Below, one piece after another: positions 7,376 to 40,847 of a stretch of 64,000 nucleotides of DNA (position 1 is the first letter of the stretch; each line of letters starts with the position of its first letter). This DNA comes from Streptomyces antibioticus (GTDB lineage: Bacteria; Actinomycetota; Actinomycetes; Streptomycetales; Streptomycetaceae). The DNA is taken from contig NZ_KQ948423.1 of assembly GCF_001514065.1 (NCBI RefSeq), positions 186,001 through 250,000 on the forward strand. The letters run 5' to 3'. The translations under genes and the position numbers were made by a program. The notes beneath the pieces were generated by a model. The model saw only the letters and a list, made by a program, of their open reading frames with translations, ran no database searches and was not told where the DNA came from.

Positions 7376-7390
7376 CTGACGGTGTGTCAG
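7376..7390 (-). promoter_or_regulatory. 15-bp palindrome CTGACACACCGTCAG
   Basis: Read towards the hydratase operon, this is CTGACACACCGTCAG, with arms CTGAC and GTCAG. The same pattern, in the same orientation, precedes the F420 oxidoreductase, aldehyde dehydrogenase and CYP125 genes. The binding protein is unknown to me. Confidence 0.6.
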
Positions 7391-7488
7391 CTCAGATGGG
7401 AGGGACGGGGCCCGTATGACATTTGTCCCGCGGGATTCCGTACGACTGGCTCTGCCGTACGGGTGGGTGGGGTTCGTAGCGTGGAGCC

Positions 7489-8814
7489 ATGACACAGGGG
7501 ATGCGGGGCATGCGGCGCATGCGGGAGACATGGAACAAGTGGCACTGGTGGGAGTCGGCGTCCTGCGGCCTTGAGGCACGCCAGGCCCGTAAGTCGTCGG
7601 AGGCGCCGGGCCCGCCGCCCACCGGGTTCTCGCTCCTGCCCTGGCTGCTGCTGGGGATGGGCGCGTTCTCCAACCTCTTCCAGGCGGGCACGCGGCAGCC
7701 GGTGCTCGGCGGCATCGGCCTGTTCGTCTTCAACTCCCTCTACATCTACGTCGTCTTCCGCGCCTTCACGAAGCAGACCCGAGAGGCCCGCTCGACCCGG
7801 GTGGCCCTGCTCCTCATGGGCGCGGTCACCTGCGCCCTGGCCCTCGGCTACGGCGGCAGCTGGCTGTACTTCTTCCCCCTGCTGGGCCTCGCCACGGGGG
7901 CGGTCGTCCGCGGTCCGTGGCTCGGCAGGACCGGCCTGGCCCTGACCGCGCTGGCGGCGGCCGTCGCCTCGTACCGGGAGGGCTGGGACGCGGTGAACAT
8001 CGCCTACGCCACGTTCCTGTCGACGATGGTGACGGCGGCGATCCTGTCGCTGTCCGAGGCGGTACGGGAACTGCGCGCCGCCCGTGAGGAGCTGGCCCGG
8101 CGCGCGGTCGAGGAGGAACGCCTGCGCTTCTCCCGCGATCTGCACGACCTGCTCGGCCACACCATGTCCGTGATCGTGGTCAAGTCGGAGGCGGCCCGCC
8201 GCCTGGCGCCCCGCGACCTCGACGCCGCCGTCGCCCAGATCACCGACATCGAGTCCGTCGGCCGCCAGGCCCTCACGGAGATCCGCGAGGCGGTGACGGG
8301 CTACCGCGAGGGCAGCCTGAGCACGGAACTCGACCGGGCGAGGTCGGTCCTGGAGGCTGCGGGCGTGCAGCCGGTCGTCCAGCACTCCGGCCCGCCGCTC
8401 GCGGCCCAGACGGAGGCGCTGCTGGGGTGGGTGGTCCGGGAGGCGGTCACCAATGTGGTGCGGCACGGGCGGGGGGTCGCTCGGTGCGAGATCTCGGTGG
8501 AGGGGGAGGTCGGGAGGGTTCGGGTGCGGGTGGTGGACGACGGGGGTGCCTGCGGCGGTACGGCCGGCGCGGGAAGCGGCATCGGAGCCGGTGCCGCGGA
8601 GACGGGCGGGGGCAGCGGCGCCCGAACCGGCACCGGCTTGCGGGGGCTTCGGGAGCGGCTTGCGGTGGCGGGGGGTCGGTTGGAGGCGGGAGCGGGGGCT
8701 CGGGGCGGGTTCGTGGTCACGGCGGAGCTGCCGGTAGGGGTCGGCGACGCCGGGCACTTGGTGAGGTCGGCCGGTCCGGACAGCGAGATGGTGTCCCTGC
8801 CCACCGGGGCATGA
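7489..8814 (+). CDS. two-component sensor histidine kinase (HisKA_3, DesK-like)
   Basis: A 441-residue membrane kinase. Four to five hydrophobic segments fill roughly residues 48-175. The dimerisation/phosphoacceptor helix follows, with RFSRDLHDLLGHTMSVI (the His near residue 222). A HATPase domain comes next, with WVVREAVTNVVRHG, RVRVVDDGG and a GTGLRGLRERL box. A Gly/Ala-rich insert separates the last two boxes. The ATG start has GGAG four bases before it. It pairs with the LuxR-type response regulator 53 bases downstream. The signal is unknown; DesK relatives sense membrane state. Confidence 0.9.
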   Translation: MTQGMRGMRRMRETWNKWHWWESASCGLEARQARKSSEAPGPPPTGFSLLPWLLLGMGAFSNLFQAGTRQPVLGGIGLFVFNSLYIYVVFRAFTKQTREARSTRVALLLMGAVTCALALGYGGSWLYFFPLLGLATGAVVRGPWLGRTGLALTALAAAVASYREGWDAVNIAYATFLSTMVTAAILSLSEAVRELRAAREELARRAVEEERLRFSRDLHDLLGHTMSVIVVKSEAARRLAPRDLDAAVAQITDIESVGRQALTEIREAVTGYREGSLSTELDRARSVLEAAGVQPVVQHSGPPLAAQTEALLGWVVREAVTNVVRHGRGVARCEISVEGEVGRVRVRVVDDGGACGGTAGAGSGIGAGAAETGGGSGARTGTGLRGLRERLAVAGGRLEAGAGARGGFVVTAELPVGVGDAGHLVRSAGPDSEMVSLPTGA

Positions 8815-8867
8815 CCCCGGACCCCGCGCGCCAAGCGCCGCAGGCGACCGCGCCCTACCCTTGGGCC

Positions 8868-9509
8868 GTGAACGAGATGCCGCGCGACCATCGGCCCGCC
8901 AAGTCCATCCGGGTTCTCCTCGCCGAGGATCAGGGCATGATGCGGGGCGCGCTCGCGCTGTTGCTCGGGATGGAGGCGGACATCGAGGTGGTCGCGCAGG
9001 TGGGGGCCGGTGACCTGATCGTGGACGCCGCGCTGACGCACCGTCCGGACGTCGCGCTCCTCGACATCGAACTGCCGGGCAAGAGCGGCCTGGACGCCGC
9101 CGCCGAGCTCCGCGACCAGGCCCCCGACTGCCGGGTGCTGATCCTGACCACCTTCGGCCGCCCCGGCTATCTGCGCCGGGCCATGGAGGCCGGGGCCGCC
9201 GGTTTCCTGGTGAAGGACGGACCCGTGGAGGAACTGGCCTCGTCGATCCGCCGGGTGCTGACCGGCGAGACGGTCATCGATCCCGCCCTCGCCGCGGCCG
9301 CACTCAGCGCAGGACCCAACCCGCTGACGGCTCGTGAGTGCGAGGTCCTGAGCACCTCGGCGGACGGCGCGACGGTCGCCGACATCGCGGATGCCCTGCA
9401 CCTGTCGGAGTCCACGGTCCGCAACTACCTCTCCTCCGCGATCGGCAAGACAGGCACCCGCAACCGGACCGAGGCACTGCGGGAGGCCCGTCAGCAGGGG
9501 TGGCTGTAG
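8868..9509 (+). CDS. NarL/LuxR-family response regulator
   Basis: A 213-residue response regulator. The receiver domain has acidic residues in LLAEDQ, the phosphorylation site in VALLDIELPG, and FLVKDG. A C-terminal GerE-type helix-turn-helix (LTARECEVLSTSADGATVADIADALHLSESTVRNYLSSAIGK) binds DNA. It is the partner of the preceding kinase. GTG 8868 is the most likely start; ATG 8877 is possible, and neither has a strong ribosome binding site. Confidence 0.9.
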   Translation: MNEMPRDHRPAKSIRVLLAEDQGMMRGALALLLGMEADIEVVAQVGAGDLIVDAALTHRPDVALLDIELPGKSGLDAAAELRDQAPDCRVLILTTFGRPGYLRRAMEAGAAGFLVKDGPVEELASSIRRVLTGETVIDPALAAAALSAGPNPLTARECEVLSTSADGATVADIADALHLSESTVRNYLSSAIGKTGTRNRTEALREARQQGWL

Positions 9510-9634
9510 CGGCAGCGCGACGCTGCACCGTCATCCGGGGTCTCGTGGGCCGGCACGGCGCTGCACGGCCACCCCAGGGCTCGTGACCTGCGCGATGCCG
9601 CGCCATCACCCGGCATCTCCTGGCCGACCCGGCG

Positions 9635-10480
9635 CTACGCCGCCACCCGCGGCCTCGTCGCCGACGCCGCCGCCACCGCCGTGTCCAGGGGGTCGTCGGA
9701 CGGTCGGCCGAGGAGGTCGGTCAGGTCGGGGTGGGTGCCGGCCAGGAAGCCGTGCCGTACGGCGGTCGCGATCGAGGCGAGCATGGGCGGCTGGAACGGC
9801 AGCAGCCCCGGCGTCTCGTCGAGGAGCCTGCGCCGGTACTCGCCCAGGCCGATGTCCCGGTGCGGGACACCGAGGCGGCCGGCCACGTCCGCCGCCGTGA
9901 TCGGCGTACCGACCAACTCGTAGACGCGCCCGGCATGGCGGGCCGGGTCCGCCGCGACGACCGCCGCGGCCTCGGCGAGGTCGGCCCGCGTGACCGCGGC
10001 CAGCGCGCCGTCGCCGAACGCCGACTCCACGCCCGCCCCGTCGGCCGACCACATCAGCAGCCCGCCGAAGAGTTCGGCGTACAGCCCGTTGCGCAGGATC
10101 GTCCACGACAGGCCCGACGCGCGCAGCAGCCGCTCCGTCGCGCGGTGGGCCAGCGCGAAACCGAGGTGGTCACCGGCGCCCGCCAGGCTCGTGTAGACGA
10201 CATGCCGTACGCCGTCCCGCACGGCCGCGTCGACCGCCGCCGCGTGGCGTGCGACGACCTGGTCGTCCTCGGCGTAACCGGCGGAGACCAGCACCAGGGT
10301 GCTCACCCCGGTGAGGTCGATGCCGGCCGGGTCGTCGAAGTCGAGGCGTCGTATCCCGGTCGTCCCGTCGCCCGGCGTGCGGCTGCCGCCGATGGCGTCC
10401 GCACCGCCCGCCCGCAGTGCGGCGAGCGCGGCGGAGCCGAGGCTCCCGTTCGCTCCGGTCACCAGGATCATGCCGGTCAT
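9635..10480 (-). CDS. NmrA/SDR-type NAD(P)-binding protein
   Basis: A 281-residue atypical short-chain dehydrogenase with an N-terminal nucleotide motif [12 protein letters not shown] and no obvious YxxxK. This fits NmrA or QOR2-type NAD(P)H:quinone oxidoreductases, which act as redox sensors or quinone reductases. GGGGGAG stands just before the ATG. It is divergent from an HxlR-family regulator 80 bases away, a common pairing in which the regulator controls the reductase. Confidence 0.82.
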
Positions 10481-40652: not shown

Positions 40653-40716
40653 GAAAGGAGTTCCTCTCCTTGCGTACCCGCGCGGCGCGGGGGCGTCCCG
40701 GCCCGGCCCGCCACGC

Positions 40717-40740
40717 GGAACTAGTACGTGTTCTAGTTCC
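40717..40740. promoter_or_regulatory. inverted repeat with a KstR-like core before the thiolase gene
   Basis: GGAACTAG (40717-40724) and CTAGTTCC (40733-40740) are perfect eight-base arms. Inside lies TAGTACGTGTTCTA (40722-40735), which fits TnnAACnnGTTnnA except for one base (TAC for AAC). It lies 65-88 bases upstream of the thiolase start. Confidence 0.6.
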
Positions 40741-40802
40741 ACGTGCAGTCTGCTGACAGGGAGTCCATCGCCGCAAGAGTCGTGCACGCCTCTTGCTACT
40801 TC

Positions 40803-40816
40803 TAGAACCCGTTACT
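40803..40816. promoter_or_regulatory. KstR-like box before CYP125
   Basis: TAGAACCCGTTACT matches TnnAACnnGTTnnA except for T in place of the last A. It lies 73 bases upstream of the P450 start and 17 bases before the CTGA-type palindrome. Confidence 0.65.
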
Positions 40817-40832
40817 ACGTTCACCGCACGAC

Positions 40833-40847
40833 CTGATGGACCGTCAG
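40833..40847 (+). promoter_or_regulatory. 15-bp palindrome CTGATGGACCGTCAG
   Basis: It lies 41 bases before the CYP125 start and differs by one base from the site before the aldehyde dehydrogenase gene. Spacing after the KstR-like box resembles the layout at the hydratase operon, but there the order relative to the gene is reversed. Confidence 0.65.

Follow-up and report, generated by a model that had tools for sequence, protein, structure and literature searches.

A conserved CTGAY-N5-RTCAG operator family at CYP125 and other promoters of Streptomyces, with a TetR_C_38 repressor as the best candidate binder

The closest described systems to the DNA element treated here are TetR-type repressors of steroid, coenzyme A (CoA) and lipid genes. 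KstR is one of these, with palindromic operators whose consensus we take to be TNNAACNNGTTNNA, and the box of KstR2 is presumably ANCAAGNNCTTGNT. KstR2 is a repressor that governs steroid C/D-ring genes and has HIP-CoA as its inducer, according to the accessible part of PMC9782250. BkaR, Mce3R and other mycobacterial TetR regulators likewise repress CoA or lipid genes; in the accessible parts of their sources, BkaR is autoregulated with the core GTTA(N)T(N4)A(N)TAAC (PMC3920632) and the Mce3R operator is non-palindromic (PMC11667970). Palindromic or repeat operators also occur with the Streptomyces TetR regulators SCO4099, SCO7222, SCO3367, ActR, the SGR set and SCO3201. The element in question is a palindromic box, CTGAY-N5-RTCAG, found at four promoters within a 64-kb stretch of Streptomyces antibioticus (contig NZ_KQ948423.1, positions 186,001 to 250,000; the whole stretch is called the window). 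It is unlike the BkaR core and the Mce3R operator as given in those texts, and none of the mycobacterial and Nocardioides motifs printed in the accessible parts of the sources fitted it. None of the SCO4099, SCO7222, SCO3367, ActR and SGR-set operators in the accessible text of PMC3511530 has this form, and the SCO3201 operator TGGCAGATTCTGCCA differs from it as well (PMC7324645, accessible part). No published account of the box, or of the TetR_C_38 regulator proposed below, was found in the literature searched, in which subscription journals are thinly covered, so that this absence carries little weight.

The CTGAY sites are a genuine, conserved operator family rather than chance occurrences, and they are probably the operators of a widely conserved, unnamed TetR repressor with a TetR_C_38 domain (PF19352). 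This protein is the best candidate binder, and with the box it would make a new regulator and operator pair within the known TetR type. The four window sites are CTGACACACCGTCAG (7376..7390, minus strand), ahead of a hydratase operon whose first gene encodes a MaoC-type hydratase (6324..7199, minus); CTGACGCACCGTCAG (19048..19062, plus), 9 bp before the start of an Rv3520c-type luciferase-like monooxygenase (LLM) F420-dependent oxidoreductase gene (19072..20082, plus); CTGATGAACCGTCAG (27424..27438, minus), 27 bp before an aldehyde dehydrogenase gene (25939..27396, minus); and CTGATGGACCGTCAG (40833..40847, plus), 41 bp before the gene for CYP125 of the steroid C26-monooxygenase family (40889..42124, plus; best PDB match 5dqn, E 1.5e-154). 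Gene starts and coding calls throughout come from a simple in-house caller rather than a curated annotation. A first-pass annotation, made from the letters of the window, had described these palindromes, and every letter was confirmed; no other place in the window matches CTGAYRNACCGTCAG exactly. It had placed the first of them at the hydratase operon. The location is correct, and the operon assignment is presumptive: the site is 176 bp from the hydratase start and nearer, at 110 bp, to a divergent histidine-kinase gene, but the assignment to the hydratase operon is helped by a KstR-type box between site and hydratase and by the orthologous region of genome G013 (L072), where sites lie ahead of the hydratase and the F420 gene.

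That chance would hardly produce such sites, as the same annotation had argued, is borne out at both scales. CTGAY-N5-RTCAG occurs four times in the window, all at the known sites, compared with a mean of 0.05 and a maximum of 1 in 60 mononucleotide shuffles. Across the 10.15-Mb genome there are 12 matches to CTGAYNNACCGTCAG against 0 for the reversed-pattern control and a composition expectation of 0.45, 31 to CTGAYNNNCCGTCAG against 1 reversed (one place counted on both strands), and 44 to CTGACNNNNNGTCAG against 3 reversed; with one mismatch permitted, the count is 112 against 8. Scanning the genome also places the motif before genes rather than inside them. Eleven of the 12 exact CTGAYNNACCGTCAG places are outside called genes, 5–135 bp from a called start, and one (C2:700494) is intragenic. 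Among 56 distinct exact CTGAYN5RTCAG sites classified from the loci examined, 31 are strict, with CC adjoining the GTCAG or ATCAG half or the mirror image of this arrangement; 24 of these strict sites are within 150 bp upstream of a start and four are intragenic. Part of the remaining 25 looks like background, because 12 are intragenic and eight fall in that 150-bp upstream range.

The suggested link with CoA and steroid-like genes also holds for most sites: judged by Pfam names, a CoA, steroid-like or related redox enzyme adjoins 16 of the 24 promoter-proximal strict sites. The other eight adjoin NlpC/P60, peptidase M14, peptidase M15, an SRPBCC protein, a methyltransferase and three genes without a Pfam match. 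A second cluster, of genes for acyl-CoA and steroid-like enzymes on contig C8 (L013–L015), has 11 exact boxes with amidohydrolase, AMP-ligase, thiolase, flavin reductase, LLM and further genes as neighbours. Four of its promoters carry box pairs 25–27 bp apart (L013:5021/5048, L014:1026/1051, L014:18123/18150 and L015:6455/6482), a spacing that could let two dimers sit on nearly one helix face. Elsewhere in the genome, boxes occur ahead of genes for a ChsH2-type OB-fold/hydratase protein, a nitronate-monooxygenase-like protein, a short-chain dehydrogenase/reductase, an LLM protein and a FAD_binding_2 protein. One box is situated between an ftsY-like gene (SRP54 GTPase) and a divergent LLM oxidoreductase gene (L011:3741-6029).

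Conservation of the box extends well beyond this strain. The exact motif is present in 56 of 61 genomes, comprising all 37 Streptomyces (the window's own included), all 14 genomes of family f3 and five of ten others with one match each; the reversed control gives five matches in total over the same 61 genomes. For the genomes compared, the name Streptomyces is based on named relatives of the regulator. CYP125 is present in 88 of 121 Streptomyces genomes, and the promoters of 70 of these were read (the 30 best matches and 40 of the remainder). All 70 have an exact CTGAYN5RTCAG, where mononucleotide shuffles give an expectation of about 0.05. In the 30 closest CYP125 promoters the box holds on average 1.85 bits per column (lowest 0.6, in the central column), compared with a mean of 0.41 in 90 flanking columns, of which the highest reaches 1.23. 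Mean site counts in the 37 Streptomyces are 10.4 with CYP125 (n=30) and 3.3 without it (n=7; Mann-Whitney p 4e-4, kinship ignored).

The candidate binder is encoded outside the window, in the second cluster (C8:275567-276199, equivalent to L014:11565-12200), and is the only TetR gene among the called genes of that cluster. Its domains are TetR_N (PF00440, 26.7 bits, cutoff 24) and TetR_C_38 (PF19352, 241.7 bits). The gene is present in 61 of 61 Streptomyces and 14 of 14 f3 genomes and in none of ten other relatives, each of which has at most one exact motif. In all 44 of its promoters that were compared (30 from Streptomyces and 14 from f3; L085–L114 and L203–L216) the start codon lies within a copy of the box, CTGAC-N3-ATGACA. 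TAA, CTGAC and ATGACA are invariant in this set and the intervening bases vary; in the f3 promoters the upstream columns are mostly near or below 1 bit. TAARCT ends six bases ahead of the ATG, so the gene is probably leaderless and its predicted operator overlaps the start codon. Two further Streptomyces loci show the same own-promoter box. A class survey at E 0.001 gave PF19352 matches in 62 of 296 genomes; 19 additional loci were read, namely these two together with 13 strong and four weak relatives. Strong relatives are defined as non-Streptomyces proteins at E 3.2e-42 or better, in families f14, f16 and f20, and include all 13 in the survey. Every one of them has an upstream box with at least nine of ten half-site bases, at −245 to −282 (f14, f16) or −469 to −505 (f20) relative to the ligand-domain start, although the 13 are not independent and several share one genus. 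Shuffling the 700 upstream bases gives 0.01–0.04 such boxes per locus and 0.385 summed over 17 loci.

Several observations weigh against assigning the boxes to this protein. Its own box is imperfect, with nine of ten half-site bases in 40 promoters and eight of ten in four (L212–L215), and among the four weak relatives two have a 9/10 box and two have none. The co-occurrence of regulator and motif follows family lines, with kinship ignored, and counts of CTGAYNNNCCGTCAG track the regulator imperfectly: the 13 genomes with strong relatives have 5–21, and ten genomes of f20-g39, f6-g8 and f19 without one have 3–8 (remaining non-f15 genomes outside Streptomyces have 0–2). Streptomyces G350 (L288) keeps the regulator and its own box, yet has no CTGAYNNNCCGTCAG and one CTGACNNNNNGTCAG; perhaps its regulon was lost or the regulator has a further role. 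Other proteins may share the half-site, because site counts follow the regulator imperfectly. Such observations also feed the most serious alternative, that the boxes are true TetR-type operators of another TetR protein or of several paralogues sharing CTGAC half-sites, with TetR_C_38 confined to its own gene or to a different set. Such a protein could be among the 150 TetR_N matches of the genome, and the 3–8 strict sites in genomes without a strong relative would suit this alternative, as would G350 with no strict site. No exact box among the 54 in this genome lies within 2.5 kb of any of the 150 TetR genes; this includes the candidate and so counts against it, but it leaves every competing TetR gene without a nearby exact box, compared with an own-start box conserved in 44 of 44 promoters and a box at 13 of 13 strong distant relatives. 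Control by another TetR protein is therefore a minority possibility, improbable but to be taken seriously.

Other kinds of regulator were considered. The BTAD/NB-ARC/TPR regulator gene at L015:357-3224 is divergent from a box-bearing amidohydrolase gene of the second cluster, and large proteins are encoded at similar places in L070 and L074. Activators of the BTAD/NB-ARC type are described as binding direct repeats, and this one was set aside as a binder for that reason. The first-pass annotation had left the choice between a second regulator and a promoter element of a special sigma factor. The sites are best explained by a second regulator, and an element for an extracytoplasmic function (ECF)-type sigma factor is very unlikely. 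The latter would fit the four window sites, which share one orientation, as had been claimed, and are close to gene starts; a sigma gene is even present near the second cluster (L013:1511-2089). Constant orientation does not extend to the genome, however: 11 of the 24 promoter-proximal strict sites point towards the nearest gene, 11 point away and two are symmetric. A single directional element would not tolerate such reversal, and the box is two-fold symmetric and occurs in pairs 25–27 bp apart, so the sigma-factor explanation was rejected.

Less credible still is that KstR itself binds the CTGAY boxes as a second class of sequence. A KstR-like TetR repressor is encoded in the window (23849..24508, plus). 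Its best PDB match is KstR (E 5.7e-41), it scores 201 bits with the NCBIfam KstR model, below the cutoff of 280, and it has a TetR_C_20 domain; it is not the proposed CTGAY binder. The window has 12 KstR-type boxes with at most one mismatch, of which five, all with one mismatch, are intragenic and seven are intergenic. Two of the intergenic boxes are exact (7315..7328 and 23689..23702, the latter between the kstR-like gene and a divergent gene), and five have one mismatch (27457..27470, 27526..27539, 40722..40735, 40803..40816 directly upstream of the CYP125 CTGAY box, and 38177..38190, which has no CTGAY box and lies between genes at 37730-38131, minus, and 38206-39030, plus). Both box types thus stand together at three of the four window promoters (CYP125, hydratase and aldehyde dehydrogenase), no KstR-type box with at most one mismatch lies by the 19048 promoter, and 69 of the 70 CYP125 promoters read have such a box. 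This proximity favours KstR, but the CTGAY boxes do not match TNNAACNNGTTNNA, as the first-pass annotation had noted, and the KstR-type boxes occupy separate positions. Between the kstR-like gene and its divergent neighbour there is a KstR box but no CTGAY box, and the second cluster has 11 CTGAY boxes and a single exact KstR-type match, which is distant (L015:15590). KstR was rejected as the binder on box sequence and on the content of the kstR promoter. The two systems are alike in having TetR repressors, palindromic operators and three promoters in common, and differ in their half-sites (with the KstR consensus as assumed above) and in their proteins, with TetR_C_20 in the window's KstR and TetR_C_38 in the candidate.

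An RNA role for the palindrome, as a hairpin or terminator, is just as improbable: its symmetry and the copies near gene ends in family f15 would suit it, but strict sites here are mostly upstream of starts, and in the regulator promoter the left half adjoins the −10-like TAARCT and so probably lies upstream of the transcript. In that family, five genomes have 163–333 copies of CTGAYNNNCCGTCAG. For CTGACNNNNNGTCAG, the f15 genomes G158, G126, G087, G109 and G142 have 232–473 copies each, against 2–7 for reversed controls. Six f15 copies were read (L268, L269, L284 and L285); three are near convergent gene ends and three are within called genes. The f15 palindromes are probably something other than this operator and may be a repeat or terminator-like element.

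With the TetR_C_38 repressor as the binder, a mechanism can be proposed from sequence. With a dimer on CTGAY-N5-RTCAG, over or beside the core promoter, the genes for CYP125, the F420 oxidoreductase and the aldehyde dehydrogenase would not be transcribed, nor would the hydratase operon and the second cluster; the repressor would also shut its own gene through the start-codon box. Release would come from a CoA thioester or another product of substrate breakdown. At CYP125, the hydratase operon and the aldehyde dehydrogenase gene, two repressors would have to leave before transcription, because a KstR box lies beside the CTGAY box. The CYP125 promoter region also borders a divergent thiolase gene (39483..40652, minus), whose start is 180 bp from the CYP125 box.

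Outside Streptomyces, a relative of the regulator occurs beside homologues of steroid-ring genes. At an f16 locus (L272), both chains of PDB 6co6, which we take to be IpdAB, have homologues (E 3.1e-95 and 6.5e-73), and an IpdE2-like dehydrogenase and a FabK-type protein are encoded there too, each scoring below the model cutoff. Exact boxes lie at 3365 and 9564 of this locus, each ahead of an operon. A CoA-transferase gene is also near the regulator in L270 (f14), L271 and L276 (f16). In f16 the TetR_C_38 gene and its boxes thus sit with probable ipdA and ipdB homologues, as judged by PDB match, where KstR2 would be expected. They differ from that system: no KstR2-type box of the assumed consensus ANCAAGNNCTTGNT occurs in the window, L013–L015 or L270–L276, and the 12 PDB sequences that match the candidate at E 0.001 or better include none named KstR2, a likeness judged by sequence search and not by direct alignment. 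These observations allow a wider proposal, which we hold tentatively and would not yet favour: the TetR_C_38 repressor may act in actinobacteria as a third gatekeeper of steroid- or terpenoid-like CoA catabolism, without sequence relationship to KstR2. In some families it would stand in for KstR2 at ipd-type genes; in Streptomyces it would join KstR in a two-key lock at CYP125 and control the second cluster, sensing a CoA intermediate unlike the inducers of KstR and KstR2.

A cholesterol pathway is reported in one of more than 50 Streptomyces in the accessible part of PMC4810484. In contrast, CYP125 is kept in 88 of 121 genomes, and the CTGAY box and the KstR-type box are in 70 and 69, respectively, of the 70 CYP125 promoters read. 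The interest of the finding lies in the predicted two-key arrangement with KstR on this conserved promoter and in the possibility that, in other families, the regulator has taken the place of KstR2 at ipd-type genes. It provides a predicted operator and regulon for a TetR regulator common to all 61 Streptomyces genomes sampled, and the predicted operator links two gene clusters without an assigned substrate. The role of a steroid side-chain enzyme in these bacteria, and the signal that would open its promoter, thereby become directly testable.

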